Of a stretch of DNA of 64,000 nt, positions 22,137 to 28,807 are shown piece by piece. Source of the stretch: Granulicella sibirica (GTDB lineage: Bacteria; Acidobacteriota; Terriglobia; Terriglobales; Acidobacteriaceae); assembly GCF_004115155.1 (NCBI RefSeq), contig NZ_RDSM01000006.1, positions 1 through 64,000 on the forward strand, given 5' to 3'. Positions within the stretch are counted from its first letter, which is position 1, and every line of letters begins with the position of its first letter. The notes under the pieces were generated by a model. It was given only the letters and a program-made list of their open reading frames with translations, did no database searches and had not been told where the DNA came from. Both the position numbers and the translations under genes were made by a program.

Positions 22137-22931
22137 CTAAGTCACTGCACCGGTGAGCTGGAGTTCTAGGGGCCGGTGGCAATCACCGTAAGCCTTATTC
22201 AAGCCACACCAACACCTCTGGGTCGGGCTGATCTGCCACAGGTGTTCTACCGAAGTCATCGCTTTCGCAGGTTTTCCAGGCCAATAGCCGGACCAGAAAT
22301 CCTGCGCTTGGACCGGCCCTTGTGGAAGCTGCACCCAATGAGTGTACGGGGCCTGCTCAATGATTTGCTCGCCAGGCCTGGGCTGGTAGAGAACGATCGT
22401 TTGGCCCGCGAACTTTCGGCAAAGCCGTCGCGTTCGCAGCCAGATGAGGTGTTTGGCTACATATTGTGTTAGCTGGTCGAGAAATTGAGTGTAGAAATCA
22501 TACTCATCACTGAAGACCATCTCAGCGCTTGAAAAGACACATAGGCCCGGTAGAGGTCTACCATTGTGCAATATCGCTTGGTCTCCGCGTGGGTGCGGAT
22601 GAATTGTTGTATCTGAGTAGTAGGGCTGGAAGCGGGGTTTCAGCAGGTAGGCTCGGGGCATCGCATTGTCCTGGATGCAGAGCATGACCTCACATCGGAC
22701 ATTCATGTTTACGAGAAGCGGATCTGCCCAATGCGTGCCTCGTTCCTGGGATGGTCGAATCACGCCTTCAGATATCCACAGAGGGCGCTCTGCTTCCATG
22801 TCACGCAGAATAGAGCGAGCTGGCGAATCGCTCTCAAAAGGTCTTAGAAGGCCACCCCAAGCGACCGCGGTCAGCCCATCTGCTGGCGCATCCACTGGAG
22901 AGAACTGTGGATAGTCGGTTGTAAGTGTCAC
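22137..22931 (-). CDS. Candidate E2-like protein with C-terminal SEC-C zinc motif
   Basis: A 264-residue soluble protein. The last 25 residues hold CWCGLNKAYGDCH (C240, C242, C250, H251), a good match to the SEC-C zinc motif (CxCGSGxxYKxCH). The middle (residues 92-168) has RAYLLKP, histidines at 111, 113 and 122, GLCVF with C131, and a long helix ending in KHLIWLRT. This order of strands, histidine, LC and a WL-containing helix is like bacterial E2-type ubiquitin-conjugating proteins, whose catalytic cysteine sits in the LC. That assignment is my reading of the pattern and needs a profile search. It overlaps the DUF3892 gene by four bases, so the two are coupled. Confidence 0.5.
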   Translation of the reverse strand: MTLTTDYPQFSPVDAPADGLTAVAWGGLLRPFESDSPARSILRDMEAERPLWISEGVIRPSQERGTHWADPLLVNMNVRCEVMLCIQDNAMPRAYLLKPRFQPYYSDTTIHPHPRGDQAILHNGRPLPGLCVFSSAEMVFSDEYDFYTQFLDQLTQYVAKHLIWLRTRRLCRKFAGQTIVLYQPRPGEQIIEQAPYTHWVQLPQGPVQAQDFWSGYWPGKPAKAMTSVEHLWQISPTQRCWCGLNKAYGDCHRPLELQLTGAVT

Positions 22932-23284
22932 CGATTACCCTTCCACACTTTGCTGACGGCATGTCCTCGGTGGACAGAGACCGGTCGGTATGGCTGTGGA
23001 GGTGGTGTTGGCAGGTGATGACACACCGGCAGGCGACCGAGGTTATCGGACTTCACGCCATCACGATGTGTTTCGAGGAACTTGTGATTACCGTGATGCG
23101 CAACTCGAACATCCGCCTCATGTCCGCTCGCATCTCGGACCTTGAAATGGAGAGCGCCAGCGATGATGGCTGCAATTGCTTGCTCCTCGGTGTAGTGTTT
23201 TTGCGTTCCGGAGACACCATCGGTGCCACCAACCTCGGCGATACTTCCATTTGAAGCATGTTTAATGCAGTTTAGATAGATCAT
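22928..23284 (-). CDS. DUF3892 domain protein
   Basis: A 118-residue protein. Residues 1-85 fit DUF3892: an opening strand MIYLNCIKHASNGSIAEVGG, then YTEEQAIAAIIAGALHFKV, a strand with DVRVAHH, HKFLETHRDG and the closing DNLGRLPVC. The remaining 33 residues are proline- and histidine-rich. DUF3892 proteins are small and of unknown role, often found with mobile or defence genes. It is the first gene of a two-gene unit with the SEC-C protein, and its start faces the sigma-factor operon across a region with a perfect palindrome. Confidence 0.72.
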   Translation of the reverse strand: MIYLNCIKHASNGSIAEVGGTDGVSGTQKHYTEEQAIAAIIAGALHFKVRDASGHEADVRVAHHGNHKFLETHRDGVKSDNLGRLPVCHHLPTPPPQPYRPVSVHRGHAVSKVWKGNR

Positions 23285-23390
23285 CTGTTTCCGTCCTTTT
23301 CGCTGTAGATTTGCATATAGTTCATCGCTGTATGGCAGTTCATCCGGCTTGCCGGTTTGCCCTCACACATAAAGCGGGCGAGCCTCTCCC

Positions 23391-23413
23391 TTTTCGCCGA
23401 TGCTCGGCGAAAA
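23391..23413. promoter_or_regulatory. 10-bp perfect palindrome between two divergent operons
   Basis: TTTTCGCCGA (23391-23400) and TCGGCGAAAA (23404-23413) are exact complements with three bases between. It lies 39 bases before the sigma-factor GTG and about 107 bases from the DUF3892 start, so it could be a shared operator. The A/T ends also fit a bidirectional terminator, but both genes point away from it. Confidence 0.55.
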
Positions 23414-23451
23414 ACTTCACTTTCGTTCGCTTTATACGTAGGTCGCCTCGC

Positions 23452-24057
23452 GTGAATGTTGCTGGTACCCAGTCCGTTGACTACAACCGTCTCGCCCAGA
23501 GATTGGCAATCCATGCCTGTCTTTTTTTGCGTTTTCTCGCTGTCGACGCTGAGACGAGAGTGATCGATGGGATTGGCAAGTCAGCAACGGACTTTGCTGC
23601 CGACACGATCCTCTTGTTTGTTGATGGCCAAGTCACATGCGAAGGCGATGAAGAGGCGGTCTTTGCCTGCCTCCGTCGTGTCATGGAACGGGACATCCTG
23701 GATGTGAAACGCCTGAAAACCGTAAGAACGGTCTCGAAGGTGGAGCCCATCTCAGGTTCGGCGTCAAAAGACGGTACTCTGCTCGTTGGTTTGGATGATT
23801 TCGCCTCCAAGGATGACGTCGGTGGAACGGTCGAGGACAGTATTTACAAACAGCATCTATATCAACTGCTGGAGAAAGACGAACCCGAACTATTTGAGCT
23901 GGTGTTCGCGGTTTGTGACATGAACGCGCTCACTCCGAAAGAAATTGCGGAGGCTATTGGAACCACTCCAAGCGACGTCCAAAACAGAAAGAAGCGCCTG
24001 CGCACTTTTGTTGCGAAGAACACGCTATTGAGAACGACCTTGAAGGCATCCGTATGA
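23452..24057 (+). CDS. Sigma-70-like (ECF-type) sigma factor
   Basis: A protein of about 201 residues. The front half resembles sigma region 2 (SATDFAADTILLFVDGQVTC, then FACLRRVMERDILDVKRL with arginine and lysine for DNA melting). The end is a region-4 helix-turn-helix (LTPKEIAEAIGTTPSDVQNRKKRLRTF). There is no region 3. GTG at 23452 is used because codons upstream are unlike coding sequence and contain the palindrome. A TATACG-type -10 lies in the upstream region. Its stop overlaps the next gene by four bases. It probably transcribes its own operon and perhaps the divergent pair; this is inference. Confidence 0.65.
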   Translation: MNVAGTQSVDYNRLAQRLAIHACLFLRFLAVDAETRVIDGIGKSATDFAADTILLFVDGQVTCEGDEEAVFACLRRVMERDILDVKRLKTVRTVSKVEPISGSASKDGTLLVGLDDFASKDDVGGTVEDSIYKQHLYQLLEKDEPELFELVFAVCDMNALTPKEIAEAIGTTPSDVQNRKKRLRTFVAKNTLLRTTLKASV

Positions 24058-24506
24058 AGAATCTGAAAACGATCTCCGATCAGGATCGTGCTCTACTAGA
24101 CCAAATAGACGCGCTCATTGGAAATTCTGAGGTGTCACCGGCAGCTCTCTCGTCTGAAATGACGGCTCTTGGCATAGATCCAAGTGAGCTTCAGCAAGCT
24201 GTGTTCCAACGCCTTCGTAAGGTTGCCACGCAGAAGTACTCCTCAATGGGCAATGATGCACCACCGCTAATGAGTGAGGCGCTGAAGCAAACGCGCCCGC
24301 TTACAGTTCAAGAAGAGCAAATCGTCCGCTCCGAACGGGCCGCGTCGCGTGTGCAAGATTTCTTGTCGTCTCTCAAGAATGGCGGTCTGTTTCAACAGCC
24401 TCTCGCTTATGCCCCTGCCTATCGTAATAAGCAAGAGGACGCGACGGACGATGACGAGCTCTTGCGCGCACAGCAGGAAGATCTCGACAACGAAAGCGAG
24501 CGCTAG
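24054..24506 (+). CDS. Small acidic protein of the sigma/IrrE operon
   Basis: A 150-residue soluble, mostly helical protein of unknown family. It starts MKNLKTISDQDRALLDQIDA, has a helical middle (ELQQAVFQRLRKVATQK), and ends in an acidic low-complexity tail (QEDATDDDELLRAQQED). It is tied to the sigma gene by an ATGA overlap and followed two bases later by the ImmA/IrrE protease. A plausible role is as the partner that holds the sigma factor or is cut by the protease, but the sequence does not show this. Confidence 0.7.
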   Translation: MKNLKTISDQDRALLDQIDALIGNSEVSPAALSSEMTALGIDPSELQQAVFQRLRKVATQKYSSMGNDAPPLMSEALKQTRPLTVQEEQIVRSERAASRVQDFLSSLKNGGLFQQPLAYAPAYRNKQEDATDDDELLRAQQEDLDNESER

Positions 24507-24508
24507 GT

Positions 24509-25357
24509 ATGACGGAGGAGGCATTGATTGCTGCGGCTCTGAGGAAAGAACTGCAACTGCCTCCTCGGATAGACCTCGATGCGCTTGCAAGAGACTTGAG
24601 GCTGAGAATCTTTGAAGTTGATTCCAAGTCGTTTGACGGCGCGTTGCTTCGAAGTTCGCGAAAGCGGGCCGGGAAAATTCTACTTCGAAGAGGGTTCCGA
24701 GAAGATGGCAGACGTCGTTTTACGATTGCCCATGAGATCGGGCATTATCTGCTGCATGCAGACATGCAAAAGCCCTGCTCGCCTCTCGTTATTGAAAGCT
24801 GGAGGGACAATCAGCCGAGGGCGGAACTTGAGGCTGACACCTTCGCTTCGGAACTTCTTTTACCGACAAATGATGTTGTTGGCTGTGTCGCAAAACGGTG
24901 GCCGTCCCTTCAAGTCGTAAGCGACATTGCGAGAACGTTTGGCACAAGCATGATGGCAGCAGCCCGCAAATTTTGCGATGTTGCCCCACAGGCATGCGCC
25001 GTGGTTTGGAGCACGCAGCGTCAGATCCGGTGGTTCCATCCGTCCCCGACATTCACGCATTTCATCCGACCTGGGAACGAAGTAGGCTTTGACACCCAAG
25101 CTTTTCGTGCTTTTCAGGGCAATACACTTCCGGACGAAATGGAAGAAGTGCCTGCGGAGGGCTGGATCAGCAGCACTTGGCTCCGAAAAGAAGCCGTAGT
25201 CTCTGAGCAGTCGCAGTCCGTCCCTTTTTACGAAGGATGCCTATCGCTTGTTTGGGTACGCAGGCCGATTGAGGATCGCCCCACGGAGGAAGATGAACTT
25301 TTGCCCGAGTTGGAACCAGAGGGGTTCACTATTTGGCGCTCGAAATGGCCAAGATAG
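24509..25357 (+). CDS. ImmA/IrrE-family metallopeptidase
   Basis: A 282-residue protease. The zinc site is AHEIGHYLLH (H75, E76, H79), and the third ligand is in AELEADTFASELLLP near residue 113. The N-terminal 40 residues form the usual short lead-in domain, and the part after 150 is a C-terminal extension of unknown type. ImmA cleaves the ICEBs1 repressor and IrrE cleaves DdrO, both after DNA damage. Here the neighbour to be cleaved could be the 150-residue protein or another repressor. The gene starts two bases after the previous stop. Confidence 0.88.
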   Translation: MTEEALIAAALRKELQLPPRIDLDALARDLRLRIFEVDSKSFDGALLRSSRKRAGKILLRRGFREDGRRRFTIAHEIGHYLLHADMQKPCSPLVIESWRDNQPRAELEADTFASELLLPTNDVVGCVAKRWPSLQVVSDIARTFGTSMMAAARKFCDVAPQACAVVWSTQRQIRWFHPSPTFTHFIRPGNEVGFDTQAFRAFQGNTLPDEMEEVPAEGWISSTWLRKEAVVSEQSQSVPFYEGCLSLVWVRRPIEDRPTEEDELLPELEPEGFTIWRSKWPR

Positions 25358-25420: not shown

Positions 25421-26512
25421 TTATTTACCGCTCTTTGTTCTGTTGTCGAGCTTGCAGAGCATTTGGCAATTTGCAGACACCGTCTTGCCTCCCTTGCTCC
25501 ACGGGACTATATGGTCGGCTTCCATCCCGCCTATTTCGAAGTATTTGTTGCAGACAGGACAAATGCCTTTCTGCTTCTCGTATATCGTCACCTGCGTCTT
25601 CTGGTCAAACCCACGCAAGTTGAGCGTTTTGTCATTGCCCGTCAGCAGGTACTCGTAAATACCCCTCTTATTGTCCACCTCGTCGTCGCTGATTAGCTCG
25701 ATGATGCGTTGCTCCAGCGAAGCCGCATTCAGCTTATCGCCCCTGTGCCGGTTGTAGAACGCTCCCCAGTCAAGCCCCTTCATGAGTTTTCGATAAGTCG
25801 GGAAGATGCGCTTCACCCACGCGATCACCTCCTGAAAATATTGCCACAACTCCTGTGAGTCGGAATCGAGCTGGTGAAGGCTCATGTAGCCCTCAATCTT
25901 GCCCTTAGAAATCCACTCCAGCGCTTGTTCTAAGTAGTCCTGGCGTAGAGGGGTCCCGTTCACATACTTCTCACCAATTTGGTAGGCAGGTCCCGCAGAG
26001 CGCGAAAACCACCTCTTCGCGTCTGAGAGCCAGGGACCCGTGTAAATTGCGTTACGCAATTCCTGATCGGTCAGTTTCTCGCCCGCAATGTTGATGATCT
26101 TGAACCAAGAAAGCTTTTCGTCCTCCGTTCCATCACACACATAGACGGAGAGTTCGTAGTCGAGAACCTGCTTTTTCTTCTCAGGCGTCAGGTTGTTAAA
26201 GAACCTTGGCGAGCCATCAATTTCGACTGAATAGTCACCCATAACGTATTGGCAAATGCTTACGGTACGCTGTTGACCATCCATAAGCTCGAATCCATCG
26301 CCTGCTACAGCCCAGTACATCGTATTGAGCGGAAAATCTTTCCTGACGGTGTGGATAACTTCATTCCGCTGGCTCTCTTTGTATATGAACTCGCGCTGGA
26401 AGGCCGGGCGAATGTTTAGGAGACCACCGTAGCCGACCACGCCACCTTCAGCGTTGTCCTGGTATCCGTCGGTCAACTCACGGACGGGAATGCCCTTGAG
26501 ACGAATGTTCAA
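25421..26512 (-). CDS. DUF262 and HNH domain protein, probable nuclease
   Basis: A 363-residue protein. DUF262 covers residues 1-200, with IRPAFQREFIY and the ParB-like nucleotide motif FELMDGQQRTVSI (76-86), which in GmrS-type proteins binds and hydrolyses NTP. The C-terminus is an HNH nuclease: CPVCNKYF, then MEADHIVPWSKGG and NCQMLCKLDNRTKSGK, with zinc cysteines in pairs. It shares a four-base overlap with the methylase gene in front, so they are expressed together. A role as the cutting half of a restriction system is likely. The sequence is visibly richer in A/T than the flanks. Confidence 0.88.
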   Translation of the reverse strand: MNIRLKGIPVRELTDGYQDNAEGGVVGYGGLLNIRPAFQREFIYKESQRNEVIHTVRKDFPLNTMYWAVAGDGFELMDGQQRTVSICQYVMGDYSVEIDGSPRFFNNLTPEKKKQVLDYELSVYVCDGTEDEKLSWFKIINIAGEKLTDQELRNAIYTGPWLSDAKRWFSRSAGPAYQIGEKYVNGTPLRQDYLEQALEWISKGKIEGYMSLHQLDSDSQELWQYFQEVIAWVKRIFPTYRKLMKGLDWGAFYNRHRGDKLNAASLEQRIIELISDDEVDNKRGIYEYLLTGNDKTLNLRGFDQKTQVTIYEKQKGICPVCNKYFEIGGMEADHIVPWSKGGKTVSANCQMLCKLDNRTKSGK

Positions 26513-27618
26513 CGTGCGGCCTTCTTTCTAATAACTATTCGGTCAAAAAGGCACCGATAGGTGCCATCACCATTGGGGAGATAGAAACTTCCGCCGCCGC
26601 GTTTGGTGTAGGTATTTCTCTTTGCAAACTGATGCATTGGTGATCCAAGCGCGTGGCTCGCGCCGATGATTTCGAACTGATCGGGATTGTACTTCGCAAG
26701 AAACGTGATCGGGACCCCCATGGCTCCTTCATAGTCTTCTGGGATATCGCTCACCTTTCCGACCTCGATCGCATCGTAATTTACATAAGTTGGATATGCC
26801 TCAGAGCTGTATTTCTTAAAGAGGGCCATCTCTTCATGGCGCTTTGCCAAGTCGAGGTTGGTAAACCAACAAGCATTACCCAAGCTCCGCCATTTTTTGC
26901 CGTCTCCATCCACCCAATACCGTGTTTCTCGCGCTTCATAGTGATCGGGAACCTGGAATGCCATGTCTCCGCTTTTATTCCCTAGCCAAAGCCTGTTCCC
27001 CTGGATCAGTTTGAAGACTTCCGCGTAGCTGATCGCATTTTGACTGCCGACAATCAGAAACTTCTTGTCCAGGAGAATGAGTTGTGCCAGGAATTCGCGG
27101 AACAACGAGAACGGCGGATTGGTGATGATAATGTCCGCCTTCTTCATGAGCTTTATGCACTCGGCGCTTCGAAAATCGCCACCGCCATAAGCGGCGTCGC
27201 CTTTGAGTGGGCGCGACGTATTAGCGTCGTTCTTGAGGAGGTATTCCACGTCGGACAAGTCGATCGCTCCATCGCCATTCTGGTCCGGGACTTGGTTAAT
27301 CTCAATCGCGTATGGTTCGCGGCCTTCCGGCTTGAGGCCTTCTATATCGAAAAGCGGCAAATGAGCGCCAACTATGGATGATTTTGTATAGCTGGTGACG
27401 ATTAGCTTCTTGAGGCCCAGCTCGTTGAAGTTGAGCGCGAAATATTTAAAGAAGTTGCTTTCGAACGGGTCATCACAGTTGCAAAGGATTGTCTTGCCGC
27501 GTAGCTGCGACCTGTAGTGCTTGAGTTCGTTGCTGATGTCTCCAAGCTGAGTGTAGAACTCATCCTGCTTGGCGTCCCGAGCCTTGCTCAGACTTCGATT
27601 CTTGATTTTCTCTGCCAT
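26509..27618 (-). CDS. EcoRI-type adenine-specific DNA methyltransferase
   Basis: A 369-residue protein of the M.EcoRI type. It starts with KARDAKQDEFYTQLGDISNE, typical of the family. CNCDDPFESNFFKYF is near residue 47, and the catalytic motif IV is IITNPPFSLF (NPPF at 167-170). It would methylate adenine on N6 using S-adenosylmethionine. It is followed by a DUF262-HNH gene with a four-base overlap, where EcoRI itself has a separate PD-(D/E)XK nuclease, so this is a different cutting module with an EcoRI-like methylase. It may protect host DNA from that nuclease or help it choose targets. Confidence 0.9.
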   Translation of the reverse strand: MAEKIKNRSLSKARDAKQDEFYTQLGDISNELKHYRSQLRGKTILCNCDDPFESNFFKYFALNFNELGLKKLIVTSYTKSSIVGAHLPLFDIEGLKPEGREPYAIEINQVPDQNGDGAIDLSDVEYLLKNDANTSRPLKGDAAYGGGDFRSAECIKLMKKADIIITNPPFSLFREFLAQLILLDKKFLIVGSQNAISYAEVFKLIQGNRLWLGNKSGDMAFQVPDHYEARETRYWVDGDGKKWRSLGNACWFTNLDLAKRHEEMALFKKYSSEAYPTYVNYDAIEVGKVSDIPEDYEGAMGVPITFLAKYNPDQFEIIGASHALGSPMHQFAKRNTYTKRGGGSFYLPNGDGTYRCLFDRIVIRKKAAR

Positions 27619-27809: not shown

Positions 27810-28418
27810 ATGGTCAGAGCCTTAGAACCTAACGCGACAAAAGGGAAGCGGAGAGCTGGTCAGTTGGTGGGCTACCTTCGTGTCAGCTCATTGGACCAAA
27901 AAGAGCTTCGTCAGCTTGAGGGGCAAAAGCTCGACAAGCGCTTCGTCGATAAAGCCTCGGGCAAGGATCTGCATCGGCCACAGCTCGAGCAGCTCATGGG
28001 GTACGTGCGCGATGGTGATACCGTCATCTGCCACGCCATGGACCGGTTGGCCCGGAATCTGGATGATCTGCGAAAGATCGTTCTTGGACTGACGGAGCGC
28101 GGCGTCCACGTCCGCTTCGAGAAAGAGAACCTTACGTTTACGGGTGAAGATTCTCCTATGTCGCATTTGCTCCTGAGCGTGATGGGTGCTTTTGCCCAAT
28201 TCGAACGCGATCTAATCCGCGAGCGTCAGCGAGAGGGGATCGCCCTGGCAAAGCTTCGCGAAGGCGCCTATACCGGGCGCAAGCACTCCCTCACGCCGAT
28301 GCAAGCTAAAGAACTTCGTCGTCGCGTCGTAGCTGGCGAATCGAAGACGGCGCTTGCAGGCGAGTTCGGCGTCAGCCGGCAAACGCTTTACAGATATATA
28401 GAAGGGGCGGGGAAGTGA
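27810..28418 (+). CDS. Serine recombinase (resolvase family)
   Basis: A 202-residue resolvase/invertase. The catalytic serine is in GYLRVSSLDQ. The arginine region is ICHAMDRLARNLDDL, FEKENLTFTGEDSPMSHLLL follows, and the long E helix reads GAFAQFERDLIRERQREG. A C-terminal helix-turn-helix (GESKTALAGEFGVSRQTLYRY) binds DNA. The length is full and all motifs are present. It overlaps the next gene, a truncated HerA-like ATPase, by four bases. It may be the mobility gene of the accessory island or a tool of a lost transposon. Confidence 0.93.
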   Translation: MVRALEPNATKGKRRAGQLVGYLRVSSLDQKELRQLEGQKLDKRFVDKASGKDLHRPQLEQLMGYVRDGDTVICHAMDRLARNLDDLRKIVLGLTERGVHVRFEKENLTFTGEDSPMSHLLLSVMGAFAQFERDLIRERQREGIALAKLREGAYTGRKHSLTPMQAKELRRRVVAGESKTALAGEFGVSRQTLYRYIEGAGK

Positions 28419-28807
28419 CGCGACTGCTGATTGGGAAGGACGGCTTCACGCTTCCGATCGAACTGGTCACGTCGACGCAGGCGATTCTGGCCCGCAAGCG
28501 CAGTGGCAAAAGCTATACGGCGTCAGTCCAGGCTGAGGAGCTGCTTCGACACAAACAGCAAATTGCTACGATCGACCCGACGGGGGCCTGGTGGGGCTTA
28601 CGATCCTCAGCTGCAGGCGATGGGCCGGGATACCCGGTCGTCGTCTTCGGCGGGGATCACGCCGATGCTCCGCTCGAACCGCATGCCGGTCGAATGCTGG
28701 CTACAGCACTCGTGGAGCACGGTTTCTCGGCGATCTTCGATGTTGGTCTTATGGTGACGGAAGACCAGATTCGGTTTACCTCTGATTTTTCGAGTGAACA
28801 TCCGTAA
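28415..28807 (+). pseudogene. HerA-like (DUF87) ATPase, truncated
   Basis: About 125 codons of the N-terminal part of a HerA/FtsK-like ATPase. They include the start TRLLIGKDGFTLPIELVTS, the P-loop ILARKRSGKSYTA, then IDPTGAWWGLRSSAAG, GYPVVVFGGDHADAPLEP and FSAIFDVGLMVTEDQIRF. The Walker B, arginine finger and all later parts are missing, as the frame ends at TAA about 400 codons early. The start lies within the resolvase stop. It is a remnant of a larger resolvase-ATPase unit. Confidence 0.75.

Follow-up and report, generated by a model that had tools for sequence, protein, structure and literature searches.

Introduction

A 2026 paper on DNA-damage controllers of immune operons names, in the part of its text available, three families that act by derepression: CapW/BrxR, CapH with CapP, and CapK with CapS; in the known systems CapP is activated by single-stranded DNA (ssDNA) and cleaves CapH (PMC13373217). 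Here we describe a locus of Granulicella sibirica (assembly GCF_004115155.1, contig NZ_RDSM01000006.1; genome of 6,139,630 bases), lying in the 64,000-nucleotide (nt) stretch analyzed, hereafter the window, in which a CapP-type protease gene follows genes for a sigma-like factor and a small acidic protein and faces a two-gene operon for a DUF3892 protein and an E2-like protein. A sigma-CapP controller was found in none of the titles and abstract openings listed by searches of literature that covered few subscription papers and preprints, and it is not among the families in the available part of the 2026 paper (PMC13373217). We propose, with a probability of roughly 60%, that two exchangeable halves make up an inducible module for defence or stress at this locus, in which DNA damage would act through CapP to remove an inhibitor, leaving the sigma factor to induce both its own operon and the E2 operon.

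A sigma-like gene, a small-protein gene and a CapP-type protease gene

The locus comprises five open reading frames (ORFs) in two divergent units, as follows.

22137..22931, minus strand: E2-like protein with C-terminal SEC-C motif (GTG start; SEC-C Pfam 2.7e-4; candidate catalytic C131, conserved H113)
22928..23284, minus strand: DUF3892 protein (ATG start; Pfam 1.2e-10; overlaps the 22137-22931 gene by 4 nt)
23452..24057, plus strand: putative sigma-70-like factor of extracytoplasmic function (ECF) type, regions 2 and 4 (GTG start; TIGR02937 2.1e-4 and Sigma70_r4_2 0.0032, neither reaching its curated cut-off)
24054..24506, plus strand: small acidic protein of 150 amino acids (aa), candidate anti-sigma factor and CapP substrate (ATG start; overlaps the sigma gene by 4 nt; isoelectric point 4.6)
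24509..25357, plus strand: CapP-type M78 metalloprotease with C-terminal sensor-like domain (ATG start; 2 nt gap after the small gene; Peptidase_M78 Pfam 1.4e-16)

An earlier inspection of the DNA letters, the sequence-only reading, had described five packed genes in two divergent units around a perfect palindrome, the right-hand genes overlapping or two bases apart, with a DUF3892 protein, a SEC-C motif, an acidic protein and an IrrE-type protease. The coordinates, Pfam matches and computed isoelectric point bear this out, and the protease can now be narrowed to the CapP type.

By its profile matches the 24509-25357 product is a CapP-type protease. It matched PADLOC capP at 5.3e-52, and a three-protein profile matched the CapP structure PDB 7t5t at 5.6e-25; the spans covered (profile positions 32-254; residues 7-250 by the capP hidden Markov model, HMM) indicate that the C-terminal domain of 7t5t is present. 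The HExxH motif occurs as HEIGH, with H75, E76, G78 and H79 invariant in the three aligned proteins. Pfam found no XRE match in the sigma-like or 150-aa protein, so that CapH does not directly precede CapP, and no kinase/STAS or WYL domain in any of the three right-hand proteins. We regard this trio, with its CapP-type protease and with a sigma-like factor and a small protein in place of the XRE protein CapH, as a relative of the CapH-CapP controllers.

A sigma profile built from the window protein and those of loci L081 and L082 (other loci are given as L numbers) also matched genes in a further 26 of 376 genomes (about 1e-4 to 4.5e-9). Of three neighbourhoods read from those 26 genomes, L106 is a trio and the other two have a sigma factor but no trio. 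Scans of viral sequences with the sigma protein found nothing, and plasmids likewise gave no match when searched with the sigmas of the window, L081 and L082. Plasmid counterparts in L192, L198 and L203 are recorded as sigma-70 family; Pfam recognized nothing in that of L192. In L081 and L082, and weakly (0.0049) in L106, a conserved counterpart of the small protein lies between sigma and CapP. Its profile reached the plasmid trios weakly, with one match (0.0091), and the second round of this plasmid search was built from a single first-round match, L199.

The trio faces diverse immune gene sets

Counting as a trio a sigma-like gene, a small-protein gene and CapP in the same order, we assembled 14 loci, including the window, from hand-picked matches in Acidobacteriota and alphaproteobacterial plasmids. 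Sigma searches of 247 and 376 Acidobacteriota genomes led to eight fetched regions, among which were three further trios: L081, L082 and L106. The matches in L083, L084, L085, L107 and L108 were rejected, being chance matches or sigma factors that no trio accompanies. Three more searches (120, 41 and 19 genomes) returned only genomes already known. On plasmids, five CapP matches picked out of 96 records divided into sigma-type (L192, L195) and CapH-type (L193, L194, L196) loci, and 11 sigma matches picked out of 43 rows (15 + 28, overlapping) gave eight trios: L197, L198, L199, L200, L201, L203, L206 and L207, the last counted although its small gene is an ORF with no profile match. Eighty viral CapP loci were used in one profile search only. 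L202, L204 and L205 lack CapP and were not counted.

Eight of the 14 trios (window, L081, L082, L106, L192, L197, L198 and L206) face genes for the cyclic oligonucleotide-based antiphage signaling system (CBASS), E1/E2 genes or Bub-like genes, in line with the nearness to defence genes that the sequence-only reading had proposed to look for. The trio of L081 faces a type III CBASS (CD-NTase 1.6e-144, HORMA 1.6e-86, TRIP13 1.1e-132, NucC 1.3e-104), that of L082 faces DUF6791-ThiF and DUF6527 genes, and that of L106 a multiubiquitin operon (Multi_ubiq 1.3e-8, Prok-E2_E 1.8e-32, JAB-ThiF). Those of L192 and L197 face CD-NTase, E2 and effector genes, and on plasmid pDE of Cereibacter sphaeroides 2.4.1 the trio faces a CD-NTase/E2/SAVED operon. 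Elsewhere the facing gene encodes a DUF3892 protein (L200), a PADLOC 'beta' protein (L203) or a 92-aa protein of unknown function (L195, L199, L201). The scheme of sigma, small protein and CapP thus appears to recur beside other immune gene sets.

Two side observations concern these plasmids. On four of them (L195, L197, L199 and L201) the first divergent gene opposite the trio encodes the conserved 92-aa protein. The plasmids of L204 (Mesorhizobium) and L205 (Bradyrhizobium japonicum) carry a sigma-like gene and a small-protein gene with no CapP; in L204 the facing genes encode multiubiquitin and ThiF, and an outward element pair of the kind described below is retained. Both loci may be related switches that use a different protease or have lost theirs.

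Paired outward elements in the control region

The stretch between the two units of the window holds these features.

23391..23413, no strand: perfect palindrome TTTTCGCCGA-TGC-TCGGCGAAAA, with 10 nt arms and a 3 nt loop; meeting point of the two elements below
23369..23399, minus strand: outward bipartite element toward the E2 operon, CGGCGAAAA-N9-TCGCCCGCTTTAT
23405..23435, plus strand: outward bipartite element toward the sigma operon, CGGCGAAAA-N9-TCGTTCGCTTTAT

A second inverted repeat (23369-23381/23423-23435), which the sequence-only reading had missed, is concentric around the palindrome, and none of 300 dinucleotide shuffles reached the extended dyad. The bipartite element, CGGCGAAAA-N9-TCGYYCGCTTTAT, occurs once per strand, each copy directed outward to one gene set and ending 17 nt from the sigma start codon or 85 nt from that of DUF3892. 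The two outward 31-mers share 21 of 31 positions, a level that 0/400 dinucleotide shuffles attained, and the 34-mers share 22 (1/400). At ≤3 mismatches the genome holds no further copy; the search pattern was derived from the two window copies, which match it exactly by construction, and a backward control pattern gave one match. These findings support a shared control region serving the divergent layout.

Outward pairs were compared with 200 shuffles each in 14 sigma-type regions, which included L204 (no CapP) and left out L207; for L082 and L106 the region was the 260 nt adjoining sigma. The pair was reached by at most one shuffle in seven regions (window, L195, L197, L198, L199, L203 and L204), and by 5 in L192, 12 in L081, 21 in L201, 32 in L200, 71 in L206, 119 in L106 and 197 in L082. 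The true intergenic stretch of L106 (199 nt) gave 92/200, and an ungapped 31-mer test in L081 gave 0/400. Among XRE/CapH-type regions, some with approximate borders that may include coding sequence, none of 13 was strong, the lowest count being 56/200. In the strong pairs the block starts are 20-22 nt apart, a promoter-like spacing. Several plasmid loci have blocks resembling TGTCCG-N-GC(A/C)TA: both strands carry them in L195, L197 and L203, a single strand in L192, L200, L201, L204 and L206. The window and L081 have a TC(G/A)TTCGC block in common. The contrast between seven of 14 sigma-type and none of 13 XRE-type regions fits a sigma-specific two-way promoter as the putative role of the paired element.

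The same region could be read otherwise, with the sigma-like protein as the counterpart of CapH, which alone or with the small protein would repress the dyad until CapP cleavage derepressed both operons. The concentric dyad could indeed serve as an operator, the XRE-type locus L040 has a dyad as well, and in the systems treated in the available part of the 2026 paper CapP cleaves a repressor (PMC13373217). Yet the elements here are outward bipartite halves with promoter-like block spacing, and the right-hand proteins show a weak sigma region 4 in the window and region 2 in relatives, with no XRE match, so we consider a CapH-like repressor unlikely.

The E2-like protein and its family

The E2-like protein (22137-22931) matched SEC-C only; its E2 region was not recognized by Pfam, NCBIfam or PADLOC. 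As a single query it matched three of 396 Acidobacteriota genomes, one of them its own. A profile matched 20 of 398 genomes of the family at E 0.001, 11 of them over much of the protein; the other nine (including L047 and L048) matched at the SEC-C end only and were dropped. Searches of plasmids, phages and viral contigs with this protein found nothing. In the resulting alignment C131, H113 and three SEC-C cysteines are invariant in 12/12 rows, two of which are fragments. PADLOC E2 models matched family members L046 (1.6e-14) and L045 (2.6e-5); among the other three members scanned, L042 and L040 matched such models chiefly in SEC-C, and L041 matched none. With SEC-C removed, the family aligned to L046 at 98.8% by hhalign. 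Against short CBASS E2s the expected cysteine block was aligned at E 0.012 and 3.5% probability, with 20 column-shuffled alignments as controls giving 0.1-0.6%.

The sequence-only reading had placed an E2-like region around C131 and had named loss of this cysteine as evidence to the contrary. C131 proved invariant, and L046 and L045 provide bridges to known E2 models, but the window protein has no E2 match of its own; it is these profile bridges that support an E2-like assignment with a conserved candidate C131.

The same evidence bears on the possibility that the protein no longer conjugates and serves DUF3892 as a metal-binding SEC-C partner, in an ordinary stress pair outside defence. Such a role would suit a protein with no E2 match of its own in two-gene operons where no E1, ubiquitin-like protein, cyclase or effector is seen. 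It sits poorly with C131 and H113 being invariant in 12/12 rows that include the two members matching PADLOC E2 profiles, and with the same kind of M78 controller at CBASS loci; we think it improbable.

Further loci with related genes deserve mention. In L072 and L073, from the same genus, the E2/SEC-C gene adjoins genes for 515-aa and 361/362-aa proteins that look by eye like an adenylate cyclase and a CRP-like receptor, and a divergent XRE-like gene is followed by one for a 343/354-aa protein with an HELGH motif and no Pfam M78 match; a Pycsar-like operon with an E2 is possible. In L046 (G419) the E2/SEC-C gene has a divergent XRE-like gene and a CapP-like protease gene, then genes for a PDC-M48A membrane protein and a metallo-β-lactamase (MBL)-fold protein, calls that rest on LmuA/PDC-M48B matches. 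The second DUF3892/E2 pair of Granulicella sp. S190 (L006/L010) is a broken copy with no M78 gene found alongside.

DUF3892 partners and exchangeable controllers

The E2 family occupies 13 distinct loci: the window, L006, L007, L008, L009, L013 and L040-L046. DUF3892 precedes the E2-like gene in nine of them; L045 and L046 have no DUF3892 gene, and L013 and L043 are truncated. In alignment, the DUF3892 proteins of these loci have a conserved C-terminal tail motif resembling PYRPV..H.V. The fold proposed for DUF3892 is, according to the available part of one paper, also found in double-stranded RNA-binding domains and HPF, and a possible role for the domain is the sensing of viral RNA or of modified ribosomes (PMC12419801).

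An M78 protease gene adjoins the E2-like gene or its DUF3892 partner at 10 of the 13 loci, the remainder being the broken copy in L006, a fragment (L013) and a locus at a contig end (L043). At eight of these 10 the protease is preceded by an XRE-type protein, called as HTH_3 by Pfam in L007, L008, L040, L041, L042 and L044 and by eye in L045 and L046. No regulator precedes it in L009, and only in the window do a sigma-like factor and a small protein take that place.

The sequence-only reading had advised checking whether the five genes stay together in other genomes, and had held that finding the two units apart in most would tell against the system. They are apart in most E2-family loci, and a fixed five-gene system fails for that reason. 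Since XRE-type regulators serve eight of 10 E2 loci and the sigma trio faces other operons, a modular reading survives, in which the units are exchangeable modules and not an obligate pair. The E2/DUF3892 pair is a separate candidate defence family whose protease controller is conserved.

Proposed mechanism

That a sigma-like factor and a small acidic protein stand where CapH would be expected suggests removal of an anti-sigma factor by CapP, followed by firing of a two-way promoter by sigma. DNA damage would activate CapP via ssDNA, and active CapP would destroy the 150-aa inhibitor. Free sigma would then transcribe in both directions from the paired element (23369-23435), boosting its own operon and inducing the E2/DUF3892 half, where DUF3892 may sense RNA or ribosomes and the E2-like/SEC-C enzyme would form a thioester at C131 and modify a target. 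E2-only CBASS enzymes work without an E1 in the operon, and the E2-like enzyme, whose operon has none, would work in the same manner.

Several results weigh against this mechanism. The ECF-type sigma assignment of the sequence-only reading draws on a weak region 4 match in the window and Sigma70_r2 matches in L081 and L082, but all are below curated cut-offs; and although the sigma profile reaches other sigma-like genes, solved sigma factors, the comparison that reading had advised for 23452-24057, were matched only at E ≥0.15. The acidobacterial sigma profile gave no match to plasmid sigmas at 0.01, so that what links the acidobacterial and plasmid trios is their gene order, the CapP protein and a weak match of the small protein. 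In L206, L082 and L106 the outward pairs fall short of significance, and in L081, L200 and L201 they are weak; nor is the dyad specific to sigma-type loci, since that of XRE-type L040 was reached by 0/100 shuffles. The comparison with Prok-E2 families, likewise advised, runs through L046 and is not significant against CBASS E2s once L046 and SEC-C are removed (0.6% and 3.5%). Finally, the window operon has no recognizable effector. The idea of a conjugation enzyme under a protease-triggered sigma switch keeps its E2-like protein with the conserved C131 (by profile bridges), sigma-like factor, CapP-type protease and shared control region but loses the fixed pairing of the units.

That the small protein is instead an adaptor or co-activator, with CapP degrading sigma to end the response, gains from the lack of a recognized anti-sigma domain in the window protein and its scanned relatives (L081, L082, L192, L195) but runs against the constant sigma-small-protease order, which resembles sigma/anti-sigma/protease logic, and seems to us the least credible account.

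A broader version of the sigma-switch proposal has, in our judgment, about even odds: ssDNA-activated CapP would free sigma from a cytoplasmic anti-sigma factor, and a self-amplifying two-way promoter common to CBASS, Bub-like and E2/DUF3892 operons would define a fourth, undescribed family of immune-operon controllers, and E2/DUF3892 would be a new minimal conjugation system lacking an E1, with the conserved DUF3892 tail as a possible target. If true, the sigma/inhibitor/CapP trio would add positive, self-amplifying control to the derepression-based controllers.

Genes adjoining the module

Beyond CapP lie two genes outside the module, convergent to the CapP gene.

25421..26512, minus strand: GmrSD_N and HNH nuclease, type II restriction-like (PADLOC REase_II 1e-132)
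26509..27618, minus strand: EcoRI-type adenine methylase (Pfam 1.7e-136)

For CapKS, a position directly downstream of restriction-modification systems is given for 88 of 443 cases in the available part of the 2026 paper (PMC13373217). A serine recombinase gene (27810-28807, plus strand) and then a short HerA-like fragment hint at a mobile region.

Comparison with known systems

Like the CapH-CapP controllers (CapH-type examples are L193, L194 and L196), the window locus has a protease of the CapP family in which both domains are present, encoded divergently to an operon of immune type; unlike them, it has a sigma-like factor and a small acidic protein in place of the XRE repressor CapH, and paired promoter-like elements. 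It resembles CapK-CapS and CapW/BrxR, which the available part of the 2026 paper presents as exchangeable DNA-damage controllers beside CBASS and Bub operons (PMC13373217), but the window trio has no kinase/STAS or WYL domain and would employ proteolysis and a sigma factor instead.

The facing half recalls the E2 enzymes of type II CBASS (E2-only and SEC-C forms) in its catalytic-cysteine block, and a SEC-C tail is also part of some PADLOC E2 models; moreover, the E2/SEC-C loci L069 and L074 have XRE-like and M78 neighbours (M78 by Pfam). In contrast to CBASS, the window operon comprises two genes without a CD-NTase, E1 or effector and has a DUF3892 partner instead, and in its E2 family an insert separates the helix that follows C131 from the WxGxWPG block. 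As to Bub/Bil systems, the window's five genes include no E1 (ThiF) or ubiquitin-like protein, a search for E1 having covered these genes and not the rest of the genome, and its operon has no DUF6527; yet it is genes of this type that face the same sigma trio in L082, L106 and L206.

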